From the NCBI RefSeq assembly GCF_963576615.1, contig NC_088714.1, positions 5,084,001 through 5,148,000 on the forward strand: a DNA stretch of 64,000 nucleotides, read 5' to 3'. Positions 3,201 through 64,000 of this stretch are shown piece by piece; within the stretch, counting starts at the first letter, position 1, and each line of letters opens with the position of its first letter. The notes beneath the pieces are model-generated. The model saw nothing but the letters and a program-made list of their open reading frames with translations. It was not told the DNA's origin and made no database searches. The position numbers and the translations under genes are program-made. This DNA is from Watersipora subatra. Taxonomy: Eukaryota > Bryozoa > Gymnolaemata > Cheilostomatida > Watersiporidae.

Positions 3201-4456
3201 CCTCTATTCCAGCAAAGGCAGCACGGAAGAAGGAAGTGAAAGGTTACACGGAAGTGAAGTATGAAAATGATTTATTCCATGGGCGTTGTTATAACTTTCC
3301 TAAAACTAAGAGAGTTACCCATCCATTATCAGCGTCTGAAATAGCTCAGTCACTCGGACGACATTTTGACATCTCAAAAAGAACTCTACAGGATATAACC
3401 GAGGCTGTACAAATGAATTTAGTTAGCATCAATAAGAGTGACATAGATAACATAAAGGTGGTGTTAGGCTATCACGGTTACGAACACACTCCACACTATA
3501 CATGGTATAACTTCTCTCACTGTGAATATACAAACTGCATTCCACTAAACCCTCATCGTTCAATCGAGCATCCGATGGCACCAGACAACGTGGCGAAAGC
3601 TGCTAGTATCATTCTCTTCAATCTTGTAGAGATGTATCACGGAGATACCTTGCTCAAAATTCCCCGTCGTACTGATCAGTATTTTGGAGTTACTTCGTTG
3701 GAGTCAACAGGGTACTCGTTCAACTTGATGCCTCCTACTCTCAATGGGCTAATGAACTTTACTGCCACCTACAGCCGTAGGTCTACTGTTCCTGAATGGC
3801 ACATATTTAAGGCGTGTATGGATAAGAGAACTACAAAGCTTCCAACTAGAAATTACTCAGAAGGCAAATCCAAAGGTGCAATCGCATATGTTAGCAATTG
3901 TATGTCTATGCAATATAATAGGCTTTCATTAATGAAAATGCTGAAGTCATACATTCCTGTTGACATATATGGTGGATGCGGGAAGCCCGATCCATGCAGG
4001 GGTCATTCAGATCCTGGGCAATGCTCCCGAGATCTTCATAAGCAATACCATTTTTATCTTAGTTTTGAAAATTCCCTCTGCGAAGACTACATTTCTGAGA
4101 AGTTCTGGGATAGATTATCGGAGGCTACATACATGCTTCCTGTTGCTATGGGAGGCCTGACTGTGCACGAGTACAGCGAGCAAGCTCCCAACCAGTCGTT
4201 TCTGCACGTTCGTAATTTTACTAGTATCGAGAGTCTTGGGAAATATCTTCACATTTTGATGAAAAATCCTGAGTCATATAATGCATACCACAGATGGCGG
4301 GAAGAGTGGGATGTGTATAAGCGGCCCATATACACACGATTTCCCTCGTGCGACTTGTGCAGGATAGCCAATGAGCAGCCATATATGCCCTCAGATCCTA
4401 ACCTCTCCACCAAATACAACGATCCATCTCTCTGCAAGAATTATGAGCCTTTGTGA
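262..4456 (+). CDS. Alpha-1,3-fucosyltransferase (GT10 family), two coding exons
   Basis: Golgi type II membrane glycosyltransferase predicted to move fucose from GDP-fucose onto N-acetylglucosamine-containing glycans. Coding exons are 262-539 and 3184-4456. The donor GTGAGT at 540 and the acceptor ending in CTTTGCTAG at 3183 join in frame and give 516 residues. Residues about 13-35 form one hydrophobic anchor after a short arginine-rich cytoplasmic tail, then comes a stem. The catalytic domain is in exon 2 and carries the GT10 signature (HFYLSFENSLCEDYISEKFW, then LPVAMGG), the upstream VDIYGGCG with paired cysteines, and a C-terminal CDLC motif. Length is slightly above the usual 350-450 residues because of a longer stem. 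The choice of ATG is supported by the anchor directly after it. The fucose linkage (1,3 or 1,6) is a family-level inference. Confidence 0.9.
540..3183 (+). other. Intron 1 of the fucosyltransferase gene
   Basis: About 2.6 kb of AT-rich intron. The only structured element I see is a tRNA-like SINE head near 1517-1578, listed separately. No conserved coding segment is recognisable on either strand. Confidence 0.8.
1510..1585 (+). mobile_element. tRNA-like SINE head in intron
   Basis: GGCGCAGATGGTAGAGTGTC resembles a pol III box A, and AGTTTAAATCC about 40 bp downstream resembles a box B (GGTTCRANNCC type). No clean cloverleaf can be drawn, so this is better read as an old tRNA-derived SINE than as a functional tRNA. 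Confidence 0.45.
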
Positions 4457-40544: not shown

Positions 40545-42160
40545 TTATACCAGTAGTCATCTATATGTATGTACACTAGTAGACATCTATATAGATGTAT
40601 ACTAGTAGTCATCTATATGGATGTATATTAGCAATCATCTATAGCTGGATGTATACTAGTAGTAATCTATATGGATGTATACTAGTAGTCATCTATATGT
40701 ATGTATACTAGTAGTCATCTATATGTATGTATACTAGTAGTAATCTATATGTATGTATACTAGTAGACATCTATATAGATGTATACTAGTAGTCATCTAT
40801 ATGGATGTATATTAGCAATCATCTATAGCTGGATGTATACTAGTAGTAATCTATATGGATGTATACTAGTAGTCATCTATATGCATGTATACTAGTAGTC
40901 ATCTATATGGATGTATACTAGTAGTCATCTATATGTATGTATACTAGTAGCCATCTATATGTATATATACTAGTAGTCATCTATATAGATGTATACTAGT
41001 AGTCATCTATATGGATGTATACTAGGGGTCATCTATATGTATGTATACTAGTAGTCATCTATATGTATGTATACTAGTAGTCATCTATATGCATGTATAC
41101 TAGTAGTCATCTATATAGATGTATACTAGTAGTCATCTATATGGATGTATATTAGCAATCATCTATAGCTGGATGTATACTAGTAGTCATCTATATGTAT
41201 GTATACTAGTAGTCATCTATATGCATGTATACTAGTAGTCATCTATATAGTTGTATACTAGTAGTCATCTATATGGATGTATATTAGCAATCATCTATAG
41301 CTGGATGTATACTAGTAGTAATCTATATGGATGTATACTAGTAGTCATCTATATGTATGTATACTAGTAGTCATCTATATGGATGTATACTAGTAGTCAT
41401 CTATATGTATGTATACTAGTAGACATCTATATGTATGTATACTAGTAGTCATCTATATGTATGTATACTAGTAGACATCTATAAAGAAGTATACTAGTAG
41501 TCATCTATATGGATGTATATTAGCAATCATATATAGCTGGATGTATACTAGTAGTAATCTATATGTATGTATACTAGTAGTCATCTATATAGATGTATAC
41601 TAGTAGACATCTATATGTATGTATACTAGTAGTCATCTATATGGATGTATACTAGTAGTCATCTATATGTATGTATACTAGTAGACATCTATATGTATGT
41701 ATACTAGTAGTGATCTATATGTATGTATACTAGTAGTCATCTATATGGATGTATAGTAGTAGTCTTCTATATGTATGTATACTAGTAGACATCTATATGT
41801 ATGTATACTAGTAGTTATCTATATGTATGTATACTAGTAGTCATCTATATGGATGTATACTAGTAGTCATCTATATGTATGTATACTAGTAGTCATCTAT
41901 ATGTATGTATACTAGTAGTCATCTATATGTATGTATACTAGTAGTCATCTATATGCATGTATACTAGTAGTCATCTATATGCATGTATACTAGTAGTCAT
42001 CTATATGTATGTATACTAGTAGTCATCTATATGTATGTATATTAGTAGTCATCTATATGTATGTATATTAGTAGTCATCTATATGTATGTATACTAGTAG
42101 TCATCTATATGTATGTATACTAGTAGTCATCTATATAGATGTATGCTAGTCGTCATCTAT
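40545..42160 (+). repeat. 26-bp satellite array, about 60 copies (ATACTAGTAGTCATCTATAT)
   Basis: About 1.6 kb of 26-bp units in intron 2 of the CGRRF1-like gene, ending only about 50 bp from the exon 2 splice donor at 42211. Units vary mainly at one spot (GTATG, GATG, CATG). A distinctive variant (TTAGCAATCATCTATAGCTG) recurs near 40628, 40810, 41150, 41282 and 41519, always after GGATGTATA. This suggests block duplication of multi-unit segments (a higher-order repeat). Confidence 0.95.
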
Positions 42161-43429
42161 ATGCAAAGAAAAGCAAATAATATATGCAGAAAATGAGAAG
42201 AGATTTATACCTAATTTTAATGCTAAAAGGAATCTCTAATTTATTGACAGGAATGCTGTAGGGCCCAGGTTGGTTCAAATTGTTGCCATCAGCAAACCAC
42301 TCCATCATCGTGTCACCCCATCTAAACAAATTATTATGTATAATAACACTACAACAAAACATTCCATAACATGTCACTCTATCTAAACATAGCATTACAA
42401 CTATATAGTATATGTATGTTCACTTAGAGAGACATACTATATAATTACAGTATATAGTTTTAGTATTATTCTCATGTATATTCAGTCTACAATAACACAA
42501 TAAAAAGTTAAGAGCATACTAACTGACAAGTTAATATACTAGGTTGTACAGCAATATTATTCAACTAACAATCTGCTAGCAAGCTCATGTTATAAAGACT
42601 GTTTGTTACCTTTGTGACAGTAAATGTCTGACAACAACTGAAGGTCATTTGCAATATACAACTTGAACATATGATCTTAGTTTGTTACCATCAGGTCACC
42701 CAAACCTTAACAGATTCAAATATTATCGACTTTGAGCTTTATTTAAATAATATTTAAAACATATTTAAATAATATGAACTTCAAACTTCAGAGTATTAAT
42801 ACAAAAATCTAATTAATTTAAGTTCTTACCTTCTCCATAAGAGAACAACCATTAAAGAACTAATGAGCATCAGTGATATATAGATACCATCATCTAATTC
42901 AAGGAACATAGTGTGATGCAAAGATCTTGTCAGTGACTAATAACTCGCCAGCAGCTGTTAAAAACTAAAACAAAATGGAATCTAAATTTGAAAATATATT
43001 ACATCATAAATATGCCAGCAGCTTTAGAGCTCACTGATAATTCCTGTTCATAATATGGCTGGCCTTAAATGGGAAAGACACTCTAAATAGTGATAATGCA
43101 TTGAGGTAGCACAAATCAGGCACAACTGCGGATACTACAAACATGATTTGCTAATGAAACATGCACTTTACTACTTCGCGCTGTGCACAGTTCAGCGCAT
43201 TATGCTTGAACAATGTAAACAGGTGCTTGAACAGTGTAAACAGGTACTTGAACAGGGTGAACAGGTGCTTGAACAATGCGAACTAATTTTGCATGTGGTT
43301 AAACTTAGAACTTATATTATTGAAGTCCATCATACCACTCTTGTCATATTTATACTTTATAACTTTTCTTACAAGTTCTATCAGTGGAACACCCAAGAAA
43401 CAACCATCTTAACATGAAAATACAAACAC

Positions 43430-44325: not shown

Positions 44326-45249
44326 ACTATGAAATAATTGTGCACATACTCATTACACCTATTAAAATACGCACACTGTATTTTACCTGCAGCACAACTT
44401 GTCACTTATACTTGGACATGATAATGAGTTTGATTCATGATGCCAAGTTAAAGCATGGTGAACATAAGCTTCTAACTGACAGGTTAATTTGATAGCTAGC
44501 AGTGAGCAAGAACAATGCATGAAACCTTGACCTCTTAAACAGGCTATATAGTCTTGTATCCCGGAATAAAAAAATTATTTTTAAGAAAACAGAGGATTTT
44601 TAAAAATCAGGTCGCTTTTTGGGTCAGCTAACCATGGTGAAAAGTAAATATCAATCTAGTTCGAATATTTCAGGAGTATTGGGAAGAATAGTTGATTAGG
44701 TTGCTCTGTATCTTGCGATTAATCCTATGGTGTAAGTAGTCTAAACGTTAAAACGCAAAAATTAAATGCTGAAATTAAAATGTCTAACAACTATTGTCAA
44801 GTTTAAAACAAGTAGTTTGCAATTACCTATTTTATTATCACTAATTTACTGTGATATACCATAAATTAGAAATCCCAAACAGCAGACCCTTCAAATTTTC
44901 AATTGTGATAACACTGAAGTTCAGGACAATGTAGTAGGTAATTTAATCACTAGTAAAATGTTGCTGAAAACTGTAAACTATCAATAGTCACTTGATAGCA
45001 TTATTTTGTTATGTATATCACCATGAATGAGCTTGTAACATCATAGTAATCCCTGTATACACTGTATCCAGCCAGCCACCTATGTTCTCAGGTAACTCAA
45101 AAACATTCCCCAAAAATACTATTTCATCATTCTGTCTAAGTCAATGCAGAAATTGTGAGTCATGGTGCTGAATAGATAAACTGACTACATTGTTCTGCAG
45201 TTTCAAACCAAACTTATACCACACCAAAAAGGGGTGAAATATCACATTC

Positions 45250-46308
45250 AGTTGATGCTCTAAATATGAGCTGAATAAGTAGTCAATAATCTACATATGA
45301 GGTGAATAAGTTCAGTCAATACTCTACATATGAGGTGAATAAGTTCAGTTAATACTCTACATATGAGGTGAATAAGTACAGTTAATACTCTACATATAAG
45401 GTGAATAAGTTCAGTTAATACTCTACATATGAGGTGAATAAGTTCAGTCAATACTCTACATATGAGGTGAATAAGTACAGTTAATACTCTACATATGAGG
45501 TGAATAAATTCAGTCAATACTCTACATATGAGGTGAATAAGTACAGTTAATACTCTACATATGAGGTGAATAAGTACAGTTAATACTCTACAAATGAGGT
45601 GAATAAGTTCAGTTAATACTCTACATATGAGGTGAATAAGTTCAGTTAATACTCTACATATGAGGTGAATAAGTTCAGTTAATACTCTACATATGAGGTA
45701 AATAAGTACAGTTAATACTCTACATATGAGGTGAATAAGTTCAGTTAATACTCTACATATGAGGTGAATAAGTTCAGTCAATACTCTACATATGAGGTGA
45801 ATAAGTTCAGTTAATACTCTACATATGAGGTGAATAAGTACAGTTAATACTCTACATATGAGGTGAATAAGTTCAGTCAATACTCTACATATGAGGTGAA
45901 TAAGTACAGTTAATACTCTACATATGAGGTGAATAAGTACAGTTAATACTCTACATATGAGGTGAATAAGTACAGTTAATACTCTACAAATGAGGTGAAT
46001 AAGTTCAGTTAATACTCTACATATGAGGTGAATAAGTTCAGTTAATACTCTACATATGAGGTGAATAAGTTCAGTCAATACTCTACATATGAGGTGAATA
46101 AGTTCAGTCAATACTCTACATATGAGGTGAATAAGTTCAGTTAATACTCTACATATGAGGTGAATAAGTACAGTTAATACTCTACATATGAGGTGAATAA
46201 GTTCAGTCAATACTCTACATATGAGGTGAATAAGTTCAGTTAATACTCTACGTATAAGGTGAATAAGTTCAGTTAATACTCTACGTATGAGGTAAATAAG
46301 TTCACAGG
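45250..46308 (-). repeat. 33-bp satellite array, about 32 copies
   Basis: Units share the core CTACATATGAGGTGAATAAG plus TTCAGTTAATACT, with a TTCAGT/TACAGT switch and a GTTAAT/GTCAAT switch that alternate between units. The period is a multiple of 3, so the minus strand holds an uninterrupted 316-residue frame of an 11-residue repeat (LIHLICRVLTE). No initiator context, splice link or composition supports it as a gene. Confidence 0.95.
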
Positions 46309-47809
46309 TTTGCTTGTATGCTAAAATTTTTGCATGCTAAAGCAAATGTACAAGTTTTTTAATGTATTGAGTAAGCAAAATATTTTCTAAATTCTGATGA
46401 ATGGCACTAATCTTTTTACTACTTGAAGCAATATATAAACATTATATACTTTAAGACAAACATTGGATTTTTGGCTACTTTATGTTATATGCGATCTTTG
46501 CAATGAATTCCTGCTATTCTCAATTATGGTGATCAACGAAGAAATCAATGTCGATGATATGATATTTTACACACTCATTAAATATATAAACTGAACTTAG
46601 GGGGTAAAAGGAGACAAACACTAAAAGCGGTATTGAATGTAGTCAACAAACTGCTCAACTACAACAAAACATTCTCATCTGTAACATGCCAAGTTGCTAT
46701 CAATTTGAAAAGTGTTACATGTTTTCAAAACTGTGGCAAATGGATTAGGATTACTGTTTCAGAGAATAATTTTTGGGGCAAGCAGATTGTTAACTCGAAT
46801 TATTAAAGGAAGATTCTAATGCTATTGATGGGAAGCAGTAACTAGTGATCTCAAGTGCCTGGTGCAAAAACAGGGTGCAACCCGATTCCTAGAATAACCG
46901 CTAGTGGTTACAAGATTAACATCTAAACTTCAAATTGGTCATTCTGTGAAATCAAAGAGAGCAACCATAACTACAGCTAAATGACTATAGCTAAATGACT
47001 ACGGATAAATGACTACAGCCGTGGCTCCTTTAAATAGCAATTCGCGGAAAACTAAACTTTTTTTACTACTACATGTATGTGCTATTATAAAATAAAAATT
47101 GTGCTATTAAAGTACTAGCTTGACATTATTGACAGTAAATGTAAGGTCATCTTTAGACTTTAATATGTCAATTCAATGTCAAAAACTGGCCTTTGTAATG
47201 AAAAGCAAACATCTTATGTTTAAAGAGTTGAAAAATAATCTAATTTTGGTTGCCAGGCTACTAGAGGGCGACTTGCCGTGTAATTGTAAATTTACCATTT
47301 TCTACTTTCTATGGTAAACTGCTGGATTGGCTTTAGCAATGCTTGTAAGTGGAGATCTTGGGCAAGAATGTCAATTGGCACTTGCAGTGGGCTTCAGTGA
47401 GAAAAGCTGGATGAGTAAGCAACATAAGGATCTCAGTGGTAGCCAGAGAATAAAAAGTTGTCTGACTGCAATAGCAAGGCTTAAAAAGCAACGCCTTCAC
47501 CAAGATGAAGGCTGGTTTAGTGCCAGAAGTGGCTAGAGCAAGAAAGACTGTGATTGCTTCTATGCTCAGAGACACAGAGCATGCTGATTGGAAAAAGGTC
47601 TCCAATTGTAACTCCCAACTACATATCATGAGGCAATGAAACCTGGATGTCGGAATGCACAGTACCAAACATTGTTTCTAAACTTTTCACTATGTTTGCT
47701 GCGACATTACAAATTTAGGCTAATAACATCTTTTATTCAGTTTTCTTCACGCTAATCTTTCCTGTCATCTTTGATTACTACCGCTACTCCATCCTTCCTA
47801 ACGTAATAA
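46309..47809. other. Intergenic DNA without recognised genes
   Basis: AT-rich sequence. Short ORFs around 47120-47536 have no recognisable domain and no splice partners. A small ACTACAGC/TAAATGACTA repeat is seen at 46975-47015. Confidence 0.5.
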
Positions 47810-48298
47810 CATGCAATGTTTCTTAAAATAACATCAACAATGGTTCAAAACCGGGCAACACGATTCATAGCCAATCTTAAAGGTAGAGATAGTGTCAGCA
47901 ACACCCGTGAAAAGCTAGGTTTACAATCGCTTGAATCCAGAAGAAAAAACCATAGAGTAACTTTACTGATGAAGATCCTATCACATGAAAGTAAGCATAA
48001 TGTTCTAGCTTCTGCTTATGATGAGCTTACTACTGACAGAAAGGATACTTCTGTAATCACACGTGCTGCTGCCCATAGTGAACCAACATCAATATATGCC
48101 ATGACTCGCCTCTTTCATGACAGTTTCTTACCCAAAACTGTTGGACTTAAGACTAAAATCTCAGACTGAAACATAATTCAGCTTAATGCTGGAATCTAGG
48201 TGAACCAAAAGCTTAACCAAAGTGTTACTTCTGAGGCACTTTCTCAAAGCCTCTAAAGCTAATTACAAGTGTACTATTACTATCAAGTAAGTAAGTAA
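47810..48298 (+). mobile_element. 5'-truncated non-LTR retrotransposon 3' end (reverse transcriptase tail)
   Basis: The open frame 47816-48169 encodes the C-terminal tail found in jockey/CR1-type reverse transcriptase polyproteins: MVQNRATRFI, GLQSLESRRKNHRV, then HDSFLPKTVGLKTK before the stop. These are the well-known 'VQNRAARFI ... LGLxSLExRR' and 'SFLPKTV' segments. The catalytic part is absent, as in most truncated LINE copies. An (AAGT)n tail at 48284-48298 ends the element. Confidence 0.8.
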
Positions 48299-48303
48299 CG
48301 CAA

Positions 48304-48347
48304 CATGCCGCTACTGACAGTTGTATGTAACTGTCAGTAGCGGCATG
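48304..48347. repeat. Perfect 19-bp inverted repeat with 6-nt loop
   Basis: CATGCCGCTACTGACAGTT (48304-48322) and its exact reverse complement (48329-48347) flank GTATGT. It lies directly after the LINE tail and upstream of the MULE insertion. Arms are much shorter than typical microRNA precursors. Confidence 0.9.
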
Positions 48348-48913
48348 ATCAAGGTAAGTAGTCTTTTTAGTATGCACGGTTAAAAAGTATTACCTCGTAG
48401 GATTCTTCACGCTAAACCACCTAGGGATGTAAGGGGCGTGCCTCAATTAGACCCAAATGGATTTTTTCTTTGTAAAACAATGTTCCAGTAATTGGTTTCA
48501 TAATTAGAATCTATGAATTAATGTTACATAGAGGTCTGCAATTTAAGGTCTCGTATTGTCTTTGGTAAAAAGCTATTGTGGAAGAGTGACCTGAATTAAC
48601 GTAACGACGTGAATTAAACAAACAAGCTGAATAGTGTGTGTACAGTCAAACCCAGCGTGTGTTATACCATGTAGTCAGACCCAAAGTGTCTTACACGATA
48701 TTTGTTTAATTGTATTTTGAGTTTCGTCAGTACTTTTCTAAAACTTAGCAAAAGTCCAAGTTTTGTCGAACCATGCTGTTTCCTTTTCCGGTTAAATGTC
48801 ATTGACTGTAGCCCGATCAGCGTTAAACCACCAACAAAAAGAAAGAGTCTTGTGGCCGCGAATCATAAGGAAGCATAGGTGCTAGAGCTACGGTTAAGCG
48901 ATCTGTTGAGGTC
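48348..48913 (+). promoter_or_regulatory. Probable ancestral upstream region of the TTC7-like gene, displaced by the MULE
   Basis: The 9-bp target duplication shows this DNA was contiguous with the TTC7-like start codon before insertion. It should therefore hold the original promoter. It is less AT-rich close to the insertion (GTGGCCGCGAATC, GAGCTACGGTTAAGCG). No specific core promoter motif is recognised. Inference. Confidence 0.45.
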
Positions 48914-48922
48914 GATCGACTT
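48914..48922 (+). repeat. Left target site duplication GATCGACTT
   Basis: Exact 9-bp copy of 61924-61932. Nine bp is the duplication length typical of Mutator-like elements. Confidence 0.9.
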
Positions 48923-50955
48923 GGGGACAGCCCTATGTTCCGCAGGCCCTATGTTCCGCAAGGCCCTATGTTCCGGAAATCGCTACGGCTCAATCAGTAA
49001 ATTTATTGCTGTCTAGACGTTGCGGACGTAAAAGTGACTGATGATTCGTCTCAGCACATTAGCTCTGCCGATGTTTCTCACGCAAGAATACAATAAACAA
49101 GTTTATGTAGGAATGCGTACTGTATAAGTTGTCCAAGCGATTGTATTATAATTAAATTAAAAAAAAACTAAAGCCTGTTTTCTGATTATTTGATTTTGTA
49201 AATATAATCAAAAAACGTATGTTACTCGCTGATTGTTAATGAAATCATCAAAGCATATCTTCCTCACTGAATAATAACATCTATAAAATCATGGAGGCCT
49301 ATGCTCCTCATTCAATATTGCGCAGTATACTCGCAAGGGCTGATGTTCATCACATAATATTTTGCAATGCACTCAGTAAGGTATATGTTTCTCACTCAAA
49401 AATATTACAAATATAATTCTATATTTGTAATTATTTTATTTAATATAATGTGATTAAATTAACAATTACAATATATTCTGTATTGTCTTGTATATAAACT
49501 CTGCATATAAGTCTTGCCGTGAAGCAATTTCTGTTTGCTGCCAGTATGATTTTATTTTGCTACTTGTAATTACCATCTCTACATAACCGTTTCGTTATTT
49601 ACATCTGACAATCTCACCTACAGATGGGGAGTTTCCTTCTCATGAAATATAATTGAAGATATTTATTTTTGCCTGCAAATAGAAGCGCAAATAATATTAT
49701 ATTTGATATTAATATTATTTCAATGAAGATTAACTAACTACAAATATAATCATGAGGACCTATATTTCTCACTCGATAATAATATAAATATAATGATTGA
49801 AGCCTAAGTTTCTCACACAGTAATAGTATAAAAATCATCATGAGGACCATGTTTCTCACTCAATTATTTTATAAAAATAACCATGATGGCCTATATTTCC
49901 ATTTCATATTGCGCAATATAGTCAAAGGGCCTCACTCGATATTGTACAATACACTCGCTTCGGCCTATGTTCCTCGCTTCGTATTGCGCAATATAATCAA
50001 GGGGCCTATGTTCCTCACTTCATAATGAGCATATTATACTCCCTTGGGTCTATGTTCCTCACTCGAGATTGCGCAATATAATTAAAGGGCCTATGTTCCT
50101 CACTTCATAATGAGCATATTTACTTGCATGGGTCTATGTTCTTCACTTGAGATTGCGCAATATACTCAAAGGGCCTATGTTTCTCACATCATAATGAGCA
50201 TATTTTACTTGCTTGGGTCTGTTCCTCATTTGAGATTGCGCAATATACACAAAGGGCCTATATTCCTCACATCATAATGAGCATACTTTACTTGCTTGGG
50301 CCTATGCTCCTCACTTGAGATTGCGCAATATACACAAAGGGCCTATATTCCTCACATCATAACGAGCATATTTTACTTGCTTGGGACTATGTTCCTCACT
50401 TGAGATTGCTCAATATATTCAAAGGGCCTATATTCCTCACATCATAATGAGCATATTTTACTTGCTTGGGTCTATGTTCCTCACTTGAGATTGCGCAATG
50501 TACACAAAGGGCCTATATTCCTCACATCATAACGAGCATATTTTACTTGCTTGGGTCTATGTTCCTCACTTGAGATTGCGCAATATACACAAAGGGCCTA
50601 TATTCCTCACATCATAACGAGCATATTTTACTTGCTTGGGTCTATGTTCCTCACTCAATATTGCGCAATATACACAAAGGGCCTATATTCCTCACATCAT
50701 AATGGGCATACTTTACTTGCTTGGGCCTATGTTCCACACTTGAGATTGCGCAATGTATTCAAAGGGCCTATGTTCCTCACATCATAATGAGCATATTTTA
50801 CTTGCTTGGGTCTATGTTCCTCACTCAATATTGCGCAATATACACAAAGGGCCTATATTCCTCACATCATAACGAGCATATTTTACTTGCTTGGGTCTAT
50901 GTTCCTCACTTGAGATTGCACAATATACTCAAAGGGCTTATGTTCCTTACTTAAT
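48923..50955 (+). repeat. Left terminal inverted repeat of the MULE, built from tandem sub-repeats
   Basis: Outer part: three copies of GCCCTATGTTCCGCA. Middle (49290-49900): irregular units of AT-rich sequence plus CCTATGTTTCTCACTC. Inner part (49900-50955): about 12 copies of an 85-bp unit made of two halves, GGGTCTATGTTCCTCACTTG with TTGCGCAATATAC, then GGGCCTATATTCCTCACATC with ATAATGAGCATATTTTACTT. The ORFs here are repeat artefacts. Confidence 0.9.
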
Positions 50956-51457
50956 AGGTATTTCAAAAAAGCAGCAACAGAACCAAGTACATGTAGTTAT
51001 ATCTAGCAACTAAATGATGACATTGTCTAGTAATTTATTTAGTGGAAACTGGTAAAATATCCTCATGTGACATTAGTGCCATAAATTGCAACAAGTGCTT
51101 GTTAAAAAAGTTTTTACATCTCCTCTTTCTACTTTACATGTTCTACTCTTCACATGCCTAATTTAAATAAAAGAAATGAGCTAATCGATGTAATAATATA
51201 TTATGTAACTATAATAATAAAATGTGTTTTAAACATCTACCATAAACAACCAGCCAAGTAACTAACGGAATATTTGGATATTATATAGCCGATATATTTA
51301 GGATTTTATCTTGTTCTAGCAATTTCATCTGAGAGCCCCAACAGGTATGAACTATTTTTTAATAAATAATTTTACATACAAAAAGTGTTCTCTGACAATC
51401 AGCTGAATCGATAAATACAATATACAATAGATTTTTATGAAGTGACTGCGGGTAATT
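50956..51457. other. MULE interior, no recognised feature
   Basis: AT-rich sequence between the left array and the 3' end of the transposase gene. It would contain the transposase 3' UTR on the minus strand. Confidence 0.5.
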
Positions 51458-53685
51458 TTAAATTATTTCATTCACAGCATATTTTATCGCTCGCCAATAG
51501 CTAGTTATTGTTCGCTTTCCCTGCTCCAGCTGTCTCTTGAGTTTTTGGATTCGTTCTTCTAACTTCTGCCACTTTTTGCGCCTGCGAACTATCAGTTTCC
51601 CTGAAATGAAAATTATTGCATATAAATAAAAATGCATTTGAAAAGCGTTTAGGGTATATATATATATATATGGTTTGCCAAAGAAGGTAGATTATAATGA
51701 TCGTTCCTATATTTTTTCGTAAAAAGACAAACCTTTTTCAGCAGCTGCGGCTCGTTGTTTATACAACACTTCTTCATCTTTTAGACATGAAATGAGAAGC
51801 CATATCGAAGGGTGCTTCCTTCCAACGACGTCATTGAAATGGCTGTTCCAGGCTAGGCATAAAAGACAAACACTGCAGAATAAACTCATAGTATGATTAA
51901 GCTATACGAATGATCTTTTTTAATCCAAAATTTCGGATAAAAATTGCATACAGCTTTTATTTTTTTTGTGGAAGCTTATTTCTGATTTACAGCAGATTGC
52001 TGTATGCTCACGAGCCTTTTAGGATCTTAACCTAAATACTGGGGACTGCACATTCGCACTGTCATCTACGTAATGTTTGATATGCACATATGCAGTAAAA
52101 TACTTAAAGTTTGTAGTGAAGGCAGCGGCTTTTCGAACGCTTCTCTTTTTTATTTAATTACTTTGAGGAAGACAAAATTATAAATTGAGTGTCAATAAAC
52201 TTTGCTGGTTTTCAATATGTTAAAACAGCAGAATAATATGAATCAGAATCAAAGGATATTGGCACATGATGTATCATTATAGAATATAGTCTTAAGAATA
52301 AAAATCTGCCTGCATACTGCTGGCGAGAATTGTTTTGCTGACAGATATTTTTGTTAACAAGATTCAACATATTCCACAAATGTAAACAATATGCAATAAC
52401 TGGGGAAGCCGAATTTCCAAGCATCACTAATATTGTGTAAAGGACGATGTCTGAGTTTTTTGATATTGTAATTTGTTTCAGCTTTTTATATTCACCTTCC
52501 ACATAGTTGTTAGTCCGTGTGCTTATGTCTCGAAAATATACATTCCATACACTGATTGGAATGACTCCGTGTATAAAGGTATCATGGAAATAGGCTAGTA
52601 ACATCTCCATGGCTGGGAAATGTTTCGCCGCCTCCCTTACAGCTACTGAGCTCTTTAAGCTACTACAATAAGAAATGAGAAAACATTAATTAAGGATTCA
52701 GATGTCATCGAGGAAGCATGGTGGAAATCATACTATGAGATGTTTGGCTGGATTTATAGGTGGCGAACTCAAACGTTTGCTGCATTTGCTCTCTTGCAAA
52801 ATATGTACTTTGTAAAACTGTTTCATGGCAATTGGTAGCTCATATTTTTTGGTTGCTTTGAATTTACACTGAAGTTATATTATGCTTATAAGTTATATTA
52901 TTTTTGAAGAAGCCAGATGAAAGGTTTCATCCAATATATTCGTTAGTAATAAAGTGATGGTTAATCCTATCAATGCCATATTTCAGAAAACAGGCCTATT
53001 TGCTTTTAAACCAATTTTTAATGCACACATCTGCTGATCAGCATTTGTTCATGTTGAAAATGGTACTAGCATTTGTTCATGTTGAAAATGGTACTATAAC
53101 CCTTTCTCTGTGACCTTACATCATTATTGTCTCCTACTTGTATGTTTAGATAATTTATATCTTAATAAGCCAGTTCATTGCATAATTAGTCATGGCACCT
53201 GTAACAGTTGTTGCCTGGACTTTGTCTAATAAAGGTGTTTAACTTGAGAAGACTATCCAAGGATATATACATTTCACAACCCAGTTTCAACTGTTCAAAT
53301 GATTATCATGTTAAGGCAGACCACGTTTTTACTATAGGAATTTCAAATGAAATAAATAAACATATATAACAATAAAAATCTTCATTAAACAGTCATGCTA
53401 ATTTAATACAACTCACTCAAATGCCCCGATCACGTGATGTGGTGGAAGGAAACCTATACTTGATAGCTTTTGTACAATATCTTGTACATTACAATCTTTC
53501 TGGTATGCGGATTTCAGACCAAGCGCTGTCACCTTCCGAGAAACACTCTGGGTGAAGTGGAAATAGCACCCACATATTGCTACATTGGGCCATGCTGATT
53601 TTACCGCTTCGTGGAGACTAATCTCGAAATCACAAACAACCTCCAGAGCATTCATTTCTTCAGTGCCCTTGACAACCTTGAGCAT
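51458..53685 (-). pseudogene. MULE transposase, C-terminal part, four exons on the minus strand
   Basis: Exons 53685-53417, 52662-52496, 51852-51733 and 51600-51458 join in frame and end at TAA. Exon 1 encodes VVCDFEISLHEAVKSAWP and CGCYFHFTQSVSRKV, the second catalytic Asp and the C/H region of the MULE domain. Exon 2 encodes YFHDTFIHGVIP, VWNVYF and STRTNNYVE with the catalytic Glu. Exon 3 encodes AWNSHFNDVVGRKHPSIW and exon 4 a basic coiled coil (WQKLEERIQKLKRQLEQ). The order matches MULE transposases of animals. The N-terminal zinc-binding part and first catalytic Asp were not found intact upstream, so this copy is likely defective. A degenerate piece near 56640-56800 may be what remains of the missing part. 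Confidence 0.85.
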
Positions 53686-56040
53686 CTACAAATTTATAAA
53701 GTCATTCAAATTCAGGCAGCAATTTGGAAAAATTACAAAAAACTTTTAACATGGTATAATTATTAATAATTAGCGACCATACATTGTAGGGCACATTTAG
53801 CTTAGATTTTATGATAGGCAATAATGTGTAATAAGTATAAGATGGTTAGCAATTATTCACCACTGCTGAAGCTTTTGCTAGGAGTTATTCATCAGAGCCG
53901 CTTGAGCGCGATAAGTGTAAGAAGCTTTCTAAAGGATTGAACCCTCTGTGCTTATCCATTGACTAATAAGCCGATGCGGTCTAAAAATAATTGGCCAACG
54001 GGCTTTCATTTCCATTAGGAGTACATGTACATAATTTAGTGATATGTAATACAGTGTCTCTAGTAATATTTACTAGAAAATAATAATATTATTACTAAAG
54101 ACACTTTTTAAATCAAACACTCGGGCTGTTATCATCAGCATAAGCTAATCTGAAGCAACAAGTTATTGTTTTTAATAAGATTCAATTTCAATATAATAAA
54201 TAAAACCACCAAATTATTTGCGTTTTTTAATTGTTTAATGTGTTTTAATCAGGATAGTCATTTAATTTTCACGTGACTGTATAGAACTGTGGTTCCGGTG
54301 ACGGTTAGTGGGACATAGTAGTTAGACTATATTGTACTAGGCGGATAGTCCAGTACACGTAATGAAGAGTCAAACATCGATCAATCAGGCTTACGGTCTT
54401 CAGCAGCCTCATGAAAATTTTAAAAGATCTCGTTGATTCAGTACATAATGCAGCATTTTATAACCATGCAGGCAGTAATACCTCAAATATATTTAAGAAA
54501 TCAATGATGAGCTCTGTAGATTAAAACATATAGGGCGTGTGCCTACAACGTAAATAATCGCTTCCAGGAACCTTTACATAATAGAGATTTTACGTTATAA
54601 GAATAATAAACTACATGTATATTGCCTAATCCATTCCAATATCTTCCCAAACTCACCCCTTAGTCATACAAAAAACAACATTTTAATTTGTCAGCAGTAT
54701 TATTGATTTGCAGCGACAATGCTCATTTACAACGATTTGCTTATTTTTTCTAAACAGCAAAGCCTATTCAACAAAGTGAAACTAATAGCAAATGTTTCAG
54801 ACATCTAAAAGTAAGCAAAGCAAAAACATATATTTTTATTATAAAACTAGCGGTACTACCTGTTCGTAGTCTATCTGTATGCAGGGGTCAAAGTTAGTAT
54901 AAAATATACCTTTCGGTGGTACTAAAACTCGTGACATTCAGATTGGTAGATTGACACTGTAACACCTGCACCAATTGATCACCCTCAAGTATTTCTGAAT
55001 AATTGCGCAGCTACCTTATCCTCAGTTTTGTCGACACATCTGACGATTTATCTTGACAATTTAGAATGTCACAGAAGCTATACATATTTAATAGTAATGC
55101 ATTCGGTTTGTTCTTTTGCAAGTGTGGTGAGATGTGCTGCCATTCGAAGATAATTTGAGAACTCACCCGACTTGACTCTCTACGTTATATTTTTTTATGG
55201 TGTGCGAAGCAAAAACTTCACATAAATTCCAAATAGCGTAAAGATTTAAGTTATAGAAGTGTTTACTATACTGAATGATTTTTATTTATTAAAACTCGAT
55301 ATCATCAGATTCACCATGAAGCTCATTTTGTATGTATATGTACATGACTATAGATATGCACTGTTTGTTTTTTTACTACCTCCTGAGCAGCCCACACCCA
55401 ATTGAGAACAGGCAATGCTTAACTTTTGTTTTAGCATGTGATCCATTCACAAACAATATCATAAGTGAGTCAACCAAAACCTCGTTTAAAACATGCCGAT
55501 GAACTCTATTTATCATATCGAATAAAAAACTTTTGAAAGCTATATTTTTTTTCGGATAGCAACAATCGATACAGTTATAGTGCTTCTAAAATATTCTGGA
55601 ATAGCGGGGTGAACTTATACATGAGTAATACTTACAATAATACAATTTTTGCCTTAAAAATGCCTATCCACTTGTAAAGAATTGCCATTTATACTAATGT
55701 AAGCGTTCATTTCATATATTTTTGTAAGATTCTATTAACCAAATACTCTATGTAGAGCTAATCTTCCAGGCATAGAACTGCATTGATTACTATAGCATTA
55801 AACAACTTCTACTGTAGTTTGCTTATTAATCAGTAAAATACTTTCCACTCTTGATTTGATCGTTAGTCCTATCACCACCATTTTTCGATAACCAGGTGTA
55901 TTAACTTTTAAATAACTTTTTAATGCGCACAATTGCTCATCAGCTTTTGTTCAAATGTTTATCATGTCAAATAATATTCAAATGAAATTAATAAAATTGT
56001 ATAACAACAAAAATCTACCTTACAATAATCATATTAATTT
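53686..56040. other. MULE interior without recognised coding exon
   Basis: About 2.3 kb of AT-rich sequence between the good transposase exon and its degenerate duplicate. A 28-bp direct duplication (GCATTTGTTCATGTTGAAAA) lies just outside at 53042-53097. Nothing coding is seen here. Confidence 0.5.
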
Positions 56041-56345
56041 AATACAACTTACTCAATGCCCCGATCACGTGATGTGGCGAAAACGATCCTATACTTGAGA
56101 GTGTTTGTACGATCTCTAGTACATTACAATCTTTATTGTATGCCAATTTCAAACCAAAAGCTGCAACCTTTCAAGAAATACTTTGGGGGTGTGGAAATAG
56201 CACCCACATACTTCTACATTGGGTCCTGCTGCTTTTATTGCTTCGTGCAGACTGATCTCAAAGTCGCAAACAACCTCAAAGGCACTGAATTCTTCAGTAA
56301 AGTTGACTACCTTGAGCATCTACAAATGTATACAGTAAAGCCTTA
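55850..56345 (-). pseudogene. Degenerate duplicate of the MULE transposase CDFE exon
   Basis: Minus-strand text from about 56322 to 56041 matches the exon at 53685-53417 closely (start MLKVV, then FEVVCDFEISLHEA, CGCYFH), but is frameshifted after CYFH. Downstream intron sequence is also shared (compare 55860-55960 with 52970-53060). So a block of roughly 0.5-0.8 kb was duplicated inside the element and one copy decayed. Confidence 0.8.
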
Positions 56346-56576
56346 ATGCTTTATTATTTTTACTTGCCTTTTTATTTTAATTTGCAAAAAGAGAATGTTT
56401 TGAAAAACTCGACCTCATGTAATGTCATTACTTACTTTGTGTGTTGAGACAAACACTTACTAAAAATTTCATGGTATGTTAAAGATATTGTACATAGCGG
56501 TGATGATAAACCTTATCAAAGTAAAAACATTATTTTAAGAACTTAAACTTCTGACTTAAATTATTAAGTCAGACAA

Positions 56577-56800
56577 TCAAACGGAGCAAATGTTTACGAC
56601 AACATGTATATAAATGTGGCTGCAATAAGACACTTTTCTGACATACCCTCCAATAGCCTTAATTTTTATGAACACAAATAATAATGTCACAACATAACTT
56701 ATGCTCAACTGCTGCTGGGCACAAGGAAAACTAAAAAAGTGAATAACAATTCTCAGGTTTGATAAGCTGGCAGTTGTCAGTCCTGAATTAGTGCCCATAT
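56577..56800 (-). pseudogene. Possible relic of the MULE transposase N-terminal half
   Basis: A minus-strand frame contains FPCAQQQLSIS followed by YVVTLLFVFIKIKAIGGY. The pattern resembles the MULE segment after the first catalytic Asp (Q-L-x-x-H ... P-x-x-x-x-L/F-x-x-x-K ... Y). The Asp itself is not present. Weak, pattern-level resemblance only. Confidence 0.3.
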
Positions 56801-58426
56801 TCCCCCATAAGCCTGTTTTATTCTGCTGGCTACGTGTTCAGTGGGATGATCAGTATAGGTGCTTTTATAAAAACACCATAGGCATAAGAAAACGGCTATC
56901 TACAGCCATCTCCTTTCTCGGCGGTCCCTGATGATCAGACTCAGAGTTACAGAGCCTGAGTGAGTATGAGTTGGCTGAAACATACGACATATTTATTGTT
57001 GCTGCGAGCATAACCTTCTGATGTGAAATATGATCTTTCAGCTTTATGAACACCACCCAGGGAGCCTGCATAAGCAAAGTTGAATTAGAGTAGAATGACA
57101 AACAGGACTCCCTGAATAACTTACATTTATAATAGGCCTAACATCACATAAGCATAGGCCCCAAACATACTTGCTGGTAGTTGTAAGATAAACTGCACCT
57201 CTTTGGTCAGTTGCAAATTTTTCCAAAGCTGCTTAAAATGCGCTGTTGCTGGCTTGGTAGCAAGTAAACACAAATACATTATACATCGCTAAATTCAAAA
57301 TCTCATCATTACTTGGAATACCTCATCACGCTATGGTTAGAATGCAATAAGATTGAATTTCCTGAACGTTCCCAAACCCAAGTTCCCAAAAGTTATTGAT
57401 TAACTTGAGCATCATAAGGTTTCACCACAGGTTTTTGTATTCTAAAAGGAAAGAGTGTAAATGTATTACTCCAAAATTTGAGTCTTGAGGTCATTTATAA
57501 AGGCATGTTTTGTATAATGCCAGAAAAAAAGTTTTTTTTGTATACAGTATACATAACTGAATTGTCAGTTTCAGCATGGCTCACCCCAGTGAGCAACAGC
57601 GAGTTGTTTTACGCGAGAACAAGCAAGAAAAATCCGACTGGGCAGAGCCAAACATAGGGTCACACACATAGGCAATTTTTTTTTACTTTTTTGTGATCAT
57701 AATTTTCTGTCAATTAGTGAGTAAACATGTTCAGACATACAGAAACAAGAAAGTTTTTATAATGAAATAATCTCTCATGATGATATGGGGTATGCAAGTA
57801 GATTTTTCTGGTATGGTGTGTGACGGGCGGCACAATAGGTCATCTTTCTTAAAATTTTGCTATTCATTCTGAAATAAATTTTGCTTTTCTTTTATAATCA
57901 ATACAAAAGTAGATTTTTAGCTTAGGTGTTTTTTCCTAACAAATGCAACTTTTTTTTACCATTCGCGTGAGCAAAGAATAGCTTGTTCCACGTGTCACAA
58001 TTTTAGTGCATTTAGTCGCAGCCTGTTCTTCCTAAGTTATCTGAGGTAAAAATCTTTTATCTATAAAACGAGATTTGGCGAGAATTGGCGAGTTTGACCA
58101 GCCAAACTTGCTAATTAGCTGAAAATATAGCTAGTTTCGGTTTTATGGGCACATGGAAGTATTTGTGACACGCCGAACAATTTTAATAATATGACGATGT
58201 CTGCCTTTGTTTGAGATTTCATTTTGATACCTTGCATGGGAAAACATCGCTGGATATTCCAAGGCAAAAAAGCCAGTTTCTTTGAGAGAAATAAAAAATT
58301 AGAATTAATTTACGATGTTTCGAACTCAAAACATGGAGTTGGTCAATATTACCCTACTGATACAAACACTTGGCGTGATGCCCGTCAAATTGTGAGGTAA
58401 TCTTTGAACTGAATGTGTGTTTTTAA

Positions 58427-59129
58427 TGTATGATTACAAAAATCACATCGCATGGCGAAGGTGTAATAGATGGTATTGAGGAAAAGCATCAAACAACAGG
58501 TGCTAATGGCAGTGTACCGGAAAAAGTATGCCGTAAACTCAGCAGTCATTTGCGAAAGCTGCAACAACAATAACTTCCAAATCAGCGAAACCAATAAAGA
58601 TATTCTCTATCTCAAAAGATAAGATTACTGAAACTGCGCAAATGTGCAAAGAACCCTGGTCCATGGTGCCTTTAATTCATGGCATTTGATCGTGCCATCA
58701 CATTGCAATTAAAAAATAGTTATGTTGCTCTGATTGATTGATCCCACCTGGCAGCCAATTCCACACACACAAAGCAGCGAACATAATCAAGAAGTTACCA
58801 CAAGAGATACTTCACAAACATTAATGGAGTTTTCACCACAAATGCTGGTCGCATTGGCCTATGACTCTGAAGTCAACACGGGAGAAATTCTCATTGCAAA
58901 GGCCAATGAAAGTAGCTGAACTATAAAGTACATGCACAGTGCACGCAAGAAGTTCATGCAGCCAAACCCCAACGACAAAAGAACCACCCAGATGAACTTT
59001 CCTCTTAAAGTATCTCCAGTTATTGCACCAGGGGTAACTATCAGGTCACTGTGGTACTTTTTACTAAAAAATGAGAAAATGATAACGCCAGAATATGACG
59101 ATTTTAAGAAAAAATTGTTTACTGCATAA
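58427..59129 (+). pseudogene. Damaged second gene inside the MULE (TE-associated protein, C-terminal region)
   Basis: Pieces in order: TSHGEGVIDGI (about 58445-58477), then after a frameshift QQVLMAVYRKKYAVNSAVIC to about 58621, then 58734-59129, which reads VALAYDSEVNTGEILIA, a TGA at 58917-58919, and IKYMHSARKKFMQP. The first piece resembles the ATSHGKGAVDGIGG block, and the last resembles the YDxxxxxGEVL ... VKFMHPxxxxFxWP block. Both occur together at the C-terminus of large uncharacterised proteins common in invertebrate transposable elements. Function unknown. At least one frameshift and one nonsense codon show decay, though the TGA stands where tryptophan would fit. Confidence 0.55.
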
Positions 59130-59935
59130 AAGTCTCACAATCTTTGAATCGTATGTGTCTTATAATTCACGGTTAAATAAAATAAGTATAATATATACTA
59201 ATTTTAAATTATTAGTTGGTTGACCACATGTATATGGGTAGATGTTGTGACTCCAAATCATGACAATTTGTTGTCTAAATACTACAAAACGTAGAGAAAT
59301 TCTGGATTTTTCGTAGTGTTATTTTTGTCCCACGCGTCACGGTACCGCGCGTCACAGTTCCGCGCGTCACAGGTGGTAGTCTTCTTTCAAACCTCACAGA
59401 ATCATTAAACTTGGTCCTAAAAAACAAAACAGTACATATTTTAAGTAGAAGGGTAGTAGAGATATGAGCTTGCTGAACAATAATGTCATGTGTCAAAAAC
59501 TTCAGAAGATTTTTGCAATTGATCACAAATCAGTTTTTGATGTCAAATTATGGTTATCACACCAGGTTTGATATTTAGTAATTTTTCAATCCATTACATG
59601 ACAAGGATGAAACCTCATTCAGTGATAGTTGGTGCCAAGTGCTGCCTAAAGCAGCATAAATGATAGCAAAAGTTCACATCTAGGCTGTAAAGTATGCGAG
59701 GGAGCATTCCAATGTGCTGCGCCTCACAATCATGCCAAAAATGGCTGTGTCTGACTTTATGAGATCTTAAGAGCTTTATATGATCTAGCAAGACTAGCAT
59801 GCAATATCAAGGAAAAACCTCGGCCATATGACTATTCATGATATAACAGAATGAAGAACACAGATCCTACTGATTGTATTTATATCAGGATTGAGTGACT
59901 AACATAGCCTCTTTAAGCATGTTCCGCATTACCAA
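59130..59935. other. MULE interior, with a short GCGCGTCAC triplication
   Basis: Mostly AT-rich and non-coding. At 59330-59372 three tandem 15-bp units of CGCGTCACRGTWCCG type stand out as GC-rich. Similar GTGAC/GTCAC words occur at 57817-57830, 57988-57997 and 58165-58175. Confidence 0.6.
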
Positions 59936-61923
59936 TTGAGGATTATAAGCCCAAGCAATCGAGTGAGAAACCTAGGCCCAAGGGAGTATATTGCCCAATA
60001 TGAAGTGAGGAATATAGGCCCTTTGAGTATATTGCGCAATCTTGAGTGAGGAACATAGACCCAAGTGAGTATAACATGCTCATTATGAAGTGAGGAGTAT
60101 AGGCCCTTTAATTATATTGCCCAATTTCGAGTGAGGAACATAGACCCAAGGGATTATAATATGCTCATTATGAAGTGAGGAGTATAGGCCCTTTGAGTAT
60201 ATTGCGCAATCTTGAGTGAGGAGCATAGAGCCAAGCAAGTGTAGTATGCTCGTTATGGAGTTAGGAATTTAGGCCCTAGTGAATACCTATATCGTAATAT
60301 CTCGAGTGAGGAACATAGGCTCAAGCGAGTACGTTGTACAATATCGAGTGAGGAACATAAGCCCTCATGATTATAATTATATTATAATTGAGTGAGGGAC
60401 ATAGGCCCTCATTATTATATTCATAATAAAATAGAGTGAGAAACAGAGACCTTCATGATTATATTTATATTATAATAGAATGAGGGACATATTATATATA
60501 TAATATAAATAACTATATATAGTTATGAGTGAGTAACTATATACGTAACTAGTAATAATATAACTAATTTAGGTAATAAAATATCAAAAATATAATATTG
60601 TTATAGTTATAATAAAATAGAGTGAGGAACATAGTCTTTCATTATTGTATTTATATTATAATTGAGCGAGGAACATAGGCCTTCATTATTATATTTATAA
60701 CATGATGGAGTGAGGAACAGAGACCCTCATGATTACATTTATAATATAATAAAATGAAGAACATATTATTTTATAATATACATAACTATATACAGCTGAT
60801 AATATAAATAATTTAACTAATAAAATATATATAATACAACATTGTTACATTTATAATAAAATAGAGTGACGAACAAAAACTCTCATGATTATGTTTATAT
60901 TATAATAAAATGAGAAACATATTATGTTTATAATATACGTAACTATACATAGCTAATAATATAAATAATTTAACTAATAAAATATTTATAATATAACATA
61001 ATTATATTTATAATAAAGTATAGTGAGGAACATAGGCCTTTCACGGTTTTTATTTTTATGCTAATAAAATGAAGGACACAGGCCATCAGAGTTATCTTTA
61101 TAACAGAGTGTAGACCATAGGCCATCACGATTATATTTATAATATATTAGGGTGATGAACATAGGCCCTCATGATTATATTTATAATATAATAGAGTTAA
61201 GAATATAGGCCCTTATTACTATATTTATAATATAATCGAATGAGGAACTTTGGCCCTAATGATTTTATTTATAATATAGTTGAGTGAGGAGTATAAACCT
61301 CATGATTATATTTATACAGTATTATAATTGAGTGAGGAACATAGCCTCATGATTTTGTTTATTTACTATATCATTTAGTGTAGAGCATCGGTTTTCTTGG
61401 CATACAATATCATATGGTGGAACATTACGCCTAGAAGAAAAATTGTATAATATTACAGAGTACGTAACATAGGCTTACATGATTATGTTAATATTGTTAT
61501 GGAGTGAGATATATAGAGTTTATGGCTTTTATAATTAGAAATGTAGGCTTACAAGAACGCTTGTCTATAATTAAATAAAAAAATGAAGTAGCCTTTGAAT
61601 TTATCTATATTACTTTAAAATAAAAATGACTGAAAAAGATGGGTTTTTTTGCGTATTCTAATTTGATAATTCGTGTATTATCACTACTAATTTTTAGTGA
61701 ACGTTCATTCGTCAGATCTTTTTATTTTCTCTCAAGTTCAGCAGAGCGGTTTGTATTTTCCCAACGGCGTGATTTCACAACGACGGTTTTAATTTAAACA
61801 GCAATAATTGCATTTGCTTTAAAAGTTGTCTGTCCTTTTCAGAAATTTTATCCGATTATGCGGAAAAGTGCGGAACATAGGGCCTTGCGGAACATAGGGC
61901 GTGCGGAACATAGACCTGTCACC
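59935..61923 (-). repeat. Right terminal inverted repeat of the MULE, built from tandem sub-repeats
   Basis: Reverse-complement counterpart of 48923-50955. The inner part (59940-60300) has about four 85-bp units (GAGTGAGGAACATAGACCCA, TATTGCGCAATCTTGAGTGA). The outer part (60340-61560) has roughly 40-bp units of GAGTGAGGAACATAGGCCCT with ATGATTATATTTATAATATA. The extreme end has CGGAACATAGGGCCTTGCGG repeated. The two arms differ strongly in copy number. Confidence 0.88.
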
Positions 61924-61932
61924 GATCGACTT
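61924..61932 (+). repeat. Right target site duplication GATCGACTT
   Basis: Exact copy of 48914-48922, directly outside the right MULE terminus and 11 bp before the ATG of the TTC7-like exon. Confidence 0.9.
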
Positions 61933-61943
61933 CAACGCTAAAA

Positions 61944-62067
61944 ATGACGACGAAAGGCAAAAGTAACAAGCTTGAAGCTGACATAGAACGCTACAGAGGC
62001 CTTCAGAATTGGGAAAAGGCAATAGAATTAACTAAAACACAATGGAACAAATCGAATGTTGGCTTAG
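61944..62067 (+). CDS. TTC7-like (tetratricopeptide repeat protein 7) first coding exon, partial gene
   Basis: The ATG at 61944 opens 41 codons ending at a GGTTAGT donor (exon end 62067, phase 1). The peptide MTTKGKSNKLEADIERYR, then LQNWEKAIELTKTQW, matches the N-terminus of TTC7A/TTC7B, which start M-A-x-K, then LExEIERCR and W-x-x-x-x-EL. TTC7 scaffolds the plasma-membrane PI4KA complex with EFR3 and FAM126. Only this exon is recognised; the rest must lie to the right of the window. The 5' UTR is interrupted by the MULE, so the leader is about 20 nt from the transposon end. Confidence 0.75.
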
Positions 62068-62759
62068 GTTAGTATTTTTTCTTGCAAAGCGAGTATGACT
62101 ATTTTTGCAATCCTGGCAAATTTTGATTGTGCTAACTGATGTAATTTTCTGTGCAAGTAGTGGCAATTTGCTTTTTATAGTGTGCTGTGCACACTCAAAT
62201 ATTATGTTGACCACAATGCATCCTTGTGCTAGCACCCTTTATTGTTTCCACCCTAAACTCTCACTACAGTCAAAAGTCTTAGCAGACCTAAACTGCAGTT
62301 GCTTGCTGTACGTTTTTGTAAAAAGTTTTAATAAAGTTGATATCCGCAAGTACCACTTATTAAATCTTCTAGTTATTCACTTATAGTATGTTTCCTTAGT
62401 ATGCTAAAAAGGTGCAAAAAGTTATGATCAAACTGGAATAAACTAGGCTCTGTGTTTAGCTGTTTTACATCTGGTTTAGTTTTCTGAATTTGTTATTGAT
62501 CAGTTGTCATGACATGTTTCAGTGGACCTGAGTGGTAAGTTTTGGGCTGTTGTCATTTGTTCATTCTCCTTAGTTTGCATGCATGCTGTCTACTACCTTT
62601 AATGCTGATTTTAGATTGTTAAACGCTCAATTGTTAAGTGTCAAATTTGGTATTTGTTCTCTTTGGCGAACTTATGTTTTAAAGATCTTCCCAATTTAGT
62701 TTAGTAGTAGAACTGGTGGCTGACAGCTCTCTCTCTCTCTCCCTTTCTCTTTTGTCATG

Positions 62760-62940
62760 TTAACCAGTGGCAGGCTGCACTCTATTGTCGTGTGAACCAA
62801 TGACTGGCAGCACTCCGTTGTTTTGTTACCCTGTGGCTGACAGCACTCTATTGTTTTGTGAACCAATAGCTGGCAGCACTGTGTTGTCTTGTGAACCTTT
62901 GGCTGGCAGCATTTTCTTGTCTCATGAACTAAATACTTAT
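62760..62940 (+). repeat. About 42-bp tandem repeat (GGCTGGCAGCACT, TTGTCTTGTGAACC)
   Basis: Four imperfect units of GTGAACCAATGACTGGCAGC and CTCTATTGTTTTGT type sequence. Confidence 0.75.
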
Positions 62941-63029
62941 CTTCTTTACCAACTTTGAAAACATATTGTATATTATGGTTGTCAAACTAGATGGCTGTTC
63001 TGTTTTATGGCCCAGTTTATTCAACATCA

Positions 63030-63468
63030 CCTTACGTCTTATCTTACGTCTTACCTTACGTCTTACCTTACGTCTTACTTTACGTCTTACCTTACGCCTT
63101 ACCTTACGCCTTACCTTACGCCTTACCTTACGCCTTACCTTACGCCTTACCTTACGCCTTACCTTACGCCTTACCTTACGCCTTACCTTACGCCTTACCT
63201 TACGCCTTACCTTACGCCTTACCTTACGCCTTACCTTACGCCTTACCTTACGCCTTACCTTACGCCTTACCTTACGCCTCACCTTACGCCTCACTTTACG
63301 CCTTACCTTACGTCTTACCTTACGTCTTACCTTACGCCTTACCTTACGCCTTACCTTACGCCTTACCTTACGCCTTACCTTACGCCTTACCTTACGCCTT
63401 ACCTTACGCCTTACCTTACGCCTTACCTTACGTCTTACCTTACGCCGTATCTTACGTCTTACCTCATT
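63030..63468 (+). repeat. 12-bp satellite (CCTTACCTTACG), about 36 copies
   Basis: Very homogeneous 12-bp units, with CTTACGTC variants at both edges and one cluster in the middle (63287-63330). All three plus frames and one minus frame stay open (LTLR, LPYA, TPYL, RRKV repeats). This is a property of the unit, not evidence for coding. Confidence 0.97.
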
Positions 63469-64000
63469 GATAAAGAAACTGTTTAGTCATAGTGTCTGCT
63501 ACATATAGTTGATTGGCAAGTCAAGTTTTCAATAGCCTTGAAATGTAGCAAAGAAACCATTGGAATGTAACACCTATTGCGGTAGAGAAACTTTGCTGAC
63601 AAGTGGGTATAGTGGCTGGTTTTCTGCGCTTACAATGCTGGCTGGTTGGCATGGCAAGGTTATACACCTGAGATATCAATTGGGAAGCATTGTTCTCCTT
63701 AATCTCATAAAGGACAAAGTATTATTAATAAATCTCAGCTTTTCTTGATGTCAAAGTCTAAATGCTTGTAATTACATTTAAGCTGTACTTCATGGGTTTT
63801 CCCTTGCATTTGCTCGTGCCCTGTTCCTTGCTTGACTTCTCTTTGCTTTTGGACATTCATTTACAAAATTATCGTCTGGTTTGGTGCTATTCAGCGAACA
63901 CTCCGCATAGCTTTCACAGATATACTTGTTCCATTATGGCAAAAACAATCTCCTTTCCACTTGGAACATAACTGAAAGAAATGCCCCTTTGAATCTGCTC

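Follow-up and report, generated by a model that had tools for sequence, protein, structure and literature searches.

A segment of 13,001 bp in the bryozoan Watersipora subatra is very probably a cut-and-paste transposon of foldback type, belonging to the Mutator-like element (MULE) superfamily and lying immediately before what is probably the start codon of a TTC7-like gene. It occupies positions 48923-61923 of the window, the whole stretch of 64,000 nucleotides that was analysed (contig NC_088714.1 of assembly GCF_963576615.1, positions 5,084,001 to 5,148,000 of the forward strand). The insertion is real and its limits are well defined; as a foldback-type MULE it is of a known kind and large for one found in an animal. 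A sequence-only reading had described a MULE-type insertion with a 9-bp duplication, long inverted arms built of repeats and MULE transposase sequence, and the analysis upholds that description.

Boundaries and repeat-built arms

The element lies between two exact copies of the target-site duplication GATCGACTT, at 48914-48922 on the left and 61924-61932 on the right (neither assigned to a strand). The 9-mer has no further occurrence on either strand of the whole 64-kb window. Identical 9-mer pairs spaced by 300-30,000 bp, setting aside 9-mers of low complexity or present more than 12 times, were ranked by the inverted complementarity of their inner 24 bases. The GATCGACTT pair comes first among 11,357, with 20/24 complementary bases against 15/24 for the runner-up and maxima of 16, 15 and 15 in three 4-base-block shuffles of the window. 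The duplication exactly flanking inverted termini stands at the positions first proposed. A C precedes each copy, at 48913 and at 61923, which extends the match to 10 bp; the termini align free of offset only with the 9-bp duplication. The superfamily duplicates 8-11 bp of target, typically 9 bp, according to a table in PMC6446971, and the 9 bp found here are exact. Terminal inverted repeats are present in many, not all, MULE groups.

The left tip (48923-48975, plus strand) is made of three tandem units of the 17-bp type and is identical at 49 of the outer 53 bp to the right tip (61871-61923, minus strand), GGGGACAGCCCTATGTTCCGC... corresponding to GGTGACAGGTCTATGTTCCGC..., so that the inverted termini of the sequence-only reading are confirmed. 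From these tips extend two arms of about 2.03 kb each, the left at 48923-50956 (plus) and the right at 59895-61923 (minus), in which a core motif recurs 36 and 32 times, respectively, at up to 3 mismatches. Counted over 48923-51000 and 59851-61923, sites resembling CTATGTTCCTCAC at the same tolerance number 36, all forward, and 33, all reverse; the extra right-side motif lies at about 59851-59863, inward of the arm. The first 48.9 kb of the window contain 16 such sites, both strands taken together. The exact word CTATGTTCC occurs 26 times in the 64 kb: 15 times in the left arm on the plus strand, 10 times in the right arm on the minus strand, once elsewhere and never between the arms.

The organization of the two arms is shared. 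Going inward, both pass from 17-bp-type units to units of about 44 bp and then to 85-bp (41+44) units. In either arm the outer three core sites are found 10, 26 and 43 bases in from the tip, and core sites in the arms are mostly 41-44 bp apart. The copy number of the 85-bp unit differs (11.7 on the left, 4.4 on the right), as does the mean identity among its units, which is 90% on the left (55 pairs), 82% on the right (6 pairs) and 84% when a unit of one arm is compared with one of the other (44 pairs). Aligned globally over their full length, the arms agree at 1,394 of 1,694 aligned columns (82%). The score is 1149, whereas 30 single-base shuffles, which control only weakly for repeats, reach no more than 438.5. 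Unit identities, differing copy numbers and the arm alignment therefore identify the arms as inverted repeats whose numbers of units changed separately in each, and units probably spread more recently in the left one. Mirrored ends of tandem repeat units are those of foldback-type elements such as Muta1 and Tm1.

Transposase sequence and the origin of the interior

Four open exons on the minus strand, with canonical borders and predicted splicing, encode the C-terminal half of a MULE transposase. They are exon B (53417-53685), which carries the second catalytic Asp and a CxxH motif and has a weak Pfam MULE match, exon C (52496-52662), with the conserved Trp and the catalytic Glu, exon D (51733-51852) and exon E (51458-51600), which ends in the stop codon TAA. 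AG precedes each exon and GT follows the first three; positions 52215-52495, beside exon C, are intron, and the join between exons C and D reads TNNYVEAWNSHFNDVVGRKHPSIW. Joined in frame, the exons give 232 residues followed by TAA. Part of the fit at the joins follows from the choice of borders, which were picked by eye to suit the MULE pattern. The joined piece scores 346 against a MULE consensus, 200 shuffles reaching at most 48; taken singly against MULE consensus sequence, exons B, C and D score 167, 89 and 66, with shuffles at or below 44 and 40. The piece holds the second catalytic Asp (D19), the CxxH motif (C40xxH43), the Trp (W129) and the Glu (E145). In Pfam, the MULE profile matches 53416-53685 (minus) with E=1e-4, under the curated cut-off.

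The exon B region recurs in diverged form at 55857-56336, also on the minus strand, in two matching pieces and with a 1-nt frameshift in the exon. Within this second copy, 55977-56336 is 81% identical to 53342-53702, and 55857-55953 is 77% identical to 52955-53051; the Pfam MULE profile matches 56152-56319 with E=0.0034, under the curated cut-off. The 50 differences between the exon copies are distributed 16/8/26 over codon positions 1/2/3, which suggests that the copies may have diverged while coding still mattered, but the adjoining intron side is 77% identical (83/108), little below the exon.

Two candidates for further transposase sequence were set aside. Segment 57130-57288, which by eye resembles the stretch following the first catalytic Asp, has no Pfam match. 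A match of exon B over 10 residues at a single locus (L001) of the viral_contigs collection was judged to be chance, the frames there appearing by eye to belong to an unrelated bacterial gene.

Several results weigh against the interpretation as a foldback-type MULE. The boundaries of the element rest on a single insertion because no second copy was seen; the exact tip patterns have no match in viral_contigs and genome_contigs, collections without eukaryote genomes as such. The arm-against-arm comparison proposed by the sequence-only reading gives the identity reported above and is gap-rich, with 1,694 of 2,407 columns aligned. The Pfam MULE match of the joined piece reaches 23.2 bits (E=9.5e-05), below the cut-off of 27.6, and no relative of the piece is found among solved structures. 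For the first catalytic Asp, the best scores among 625 six-frame segments of the element lie within the range of 5 shuffles. Among 178 minus-strand segments of 53686-59900, this Asp, the FLYWCH domain and two more N-terminal stretches all score within 20 shuffles, the queries being consensus sequences that may miss a diverged exon; 20 further chosen minus-strand segments give no Pfam transposase match. The recognisable transposase claimed for the interior is thus borne out for its C-terminal half, exons B to E, while the N-terminal half was not found. The word "complete" is not borne out for this transposon: the part of the transposase that would hold the first catalytic Asp was not detected, and the second exon B copy is frameshifted. 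The copy is therefore unlikely to be autonomous, although N-terminal exons may be present in a form too diverged for detection.

These gaps leave room for a non-autonomous composite, in which one MULE family supplied the arms and the exons and the rest of the interior are remnants of other elements inserted or captured later. The missing N-terminal half and the second, frameshifted exon B in the same interior speak for such an origin, and so does the region at 57819-59371 (no strand), recognized by motif search and Pfam scan, where GTCACA-type motifs surround plus-strand open segments; this region could have arisen by nesting of another element or by capture. Motifs resembling GTTCCRCGYGTCACA number five here, with both orientations represented, and the pattern is found nowhere else in the 64 kb. 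Pfam matches none of three plus-strand open segments lying in 58215-59126, candidates for the captured host gene fragment of a Pack-MULE. Positions 51000-59900 were scanned for inverted repeats paired with direct repeats, for duplications of 8, 7, 6, 5 and 4 bp. The best inner matches were 10, 11, 12, 12 and 10 of 16, against 10, 10, 12, 12 and 12 in one shuffle each; being equal to, below or one above the shuffle at every length, they therefore reveal no clear nested element. Four exons still open with intact splice borders also argue against a composite, and MULE sequence within MULE-type ends suits a single origin. We hold the composite to be possible, if on the doubtful side, and it is compatible with the explanation preferred here for the ends. 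Rfam at its gathering threshold gives no match in 47000-64000.

Rehavkus, an outgroup of the MULEs whose elements have a PHD finger and, ahead of the 3' end, a minisatellite (PMC6446971, in part), is brought to mind by the 9-bp duplication and the minisatellites. The element has arrays at both ends, however, its exon pieces suit the ordinary MULE pattern, and Pfam detects no PHD finger in the scanned segments, which do not comprise every segment; an element of this type is very unlikely. Coincidence of unrelated inverted satellites with a chance 9-bp repeat, in a window rich in tandem repeats (65 rows), has practically nothing left to it, contradicted as it already is by the first rank of the GATCGACTT pair, the equal distances at which the outermost three units follow the tip in both arms and the transposase sequence between them.

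We privilege the hypothesis of a foldback-type MULE moved by cut and paste. Its 2-kb arms are arrays of one short core in mirrored orientation that, by analogy with Muta1 and Tm1, most likely provide many binding sites for the transposase. The enzyme would bring the two ends together and then excise the element, and insertion through a 9-bp staggered cut would create the 9-bp duplication. Array binding and cut-and-paste movement are the most likely mode of action judging from these two relatives (see also PMC6431247 and PMC10294476, in part). The present copy probably does not produce the whole transposase and would depend on enzyme provided in trans.

Insertion site and neighbouring sequence

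In the host flank outside the element, a TTC7-like gene probably has its first coding exon at 61944-62066 (plus strand). An ATG 11 bp past the right GATCGACTT copy opens a segment of 41 residues that matches positions 4-34 of the Pfam TTC7_N profile (E=0.007, 15.9 bits, below the cut-off of 27) and is identical at 14/31 positions to the N-terminus of human TTC7B. The exon ends in a GTTAGT donor. Among solved structures the exon finds no TTC7 chain, only a TRIM5 chain with E=4.5, and no second TTC7 exon was recognized by eye in segments of 61900-62960 and 63470-64000. Because the TTC7-like ATG is 11 bp past the duplication, the element probably lies within this gene's promoter or 5' leader. Muta1 likewise favours genic regions, with 110/171 sites against 49/171 controls (PMC5225508, in part). 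An insertion 11 bp before a probable start codon offers a natural case for how a gene survives an event of this kind.

Other features of the window are a long open frame of TSP1-type repeats at 24096-26216, matching properdin and thrombospondin among solved structures, a GT10 fucosyltransferase open frame at 3143-4453 (Pfam E=1.2e-44) and an open segment at 19906-20340 with a weak Pfam match to the MAM domain (E=0.0018, below the cut-off). Together with the TTC7-like sequence, the TSP1-type repeats and the fucosyltransferase point to an animal host. An open segment at 47810-48166 looks, on inspection by eye, like the 3' end of a non-LTR reverse transcriptase and has no Pfam match. Minisatellites of 26 bp in 62 copies (40546-42163) and of 33 bp in 32 copies (45247-46304) have units that, by eye, are unlike those of the arms.

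Size and comparison with known elements

An arthropod survey records MULEs of 1.4-10.0 kb, mostly 2.5-5.0 kb, with ends of up to 1193 bp in its text and 1527 bp in one row of its Table 1 (PMC13359780, in part). At 13 kb the element is indeed larger than most recorded animal MULEs, as far as this single survey reaches. The claim that its long repeat-built ends are unusual stands for their length, the 2-kb arms exceeding the ends of the survey; repeat-built MULE ends as such have already been described, in Muta1 (PMC5225508) and Tm1 (PMC3169594). A literature search found no 13-kb animal MULE in titles and openings of abstracts, Repbase and most subscription papers being outside its reach. In this element, foldback-type MULEs of animals reach 13 kb and repeat-built ends of 2 kb. 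With a common order of tiers and differing unit counts in its arms, the element is also a clear case bearing on how simple ends expand to foldback ends. More speculatively, and on balance improbably, it could represent an undescribed lineage of animal MULEs whose ends grew to 2-kb arrays of three tiers (17, 44, then 41+44 bp, about four helical turns apart); such arrays would act as cooperative platforms for transposase binding and allow a 13-kb load, beyond the sizes of the arthropod survey, to move.

Muta1 of Aedes aegypti, a type-2 foldback MULE (PMC5225508, in part), resembles the element in its 8-9-bp duplication, its mirrored ends with a terminal motif followed by subterminal tandem repeats, its intron-bearing MULE transposase and its insertions, mostly in or near genes. 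The spacing from Asp to His is 24 residues in both (D19-H43 here, D283-H307 in Muta1, where D283 and H307 are both essential), whereas Trp and Glu are 16 residues apart here (W129-E145) and 18 in Muta1, and Asp and Glu 126 (D19-E145) and 136. Muta1 differs further in its 3,198 bp, with ends of 145 bp and nine 12-bp repeats against 13 kb, 2-kb arms and 36 + 32 sites, and in being active with FLYWCH and a full DDE set, not all of which is found here.

Tm1, a Mutator/Foldback family of root-knot nematodes (PMC3169594, in part), shares the 9-bp duplication, a multi-exon Phantom-like transposase and composite ends of short tandem units in unequal copy number, whereas Tm1-A measures 2,593 bp and its ends have 1-9 units, most often of 14 bp. 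Phantom elements (group 20 of Dupeyron et al.; PMC6446971, in part) are mostly animal MULEs with duplications of 8-10 bp where given. A minisatellite is noted in their aphid members; their listed ends, by contrast, are of 18-613 bp or none. Of the Phantom hallmark, FLYWCH together with the MULE domain, part of the MULE domain is seen here, and FLYWCH was not found in the scanned segments with a consensus query. The foldback elements Galileo and Tetris of Drosophila are also alike in their long inverted ends with internal tandem repeats (Tetris: PMC4079207, in part), and multiple transposase-binding sites are named in the title of a Galileo paper. Galileo differs in using a P-element transposase (PMC3169594), and Tetris in being apparently non-autonomous (PMC4079207).

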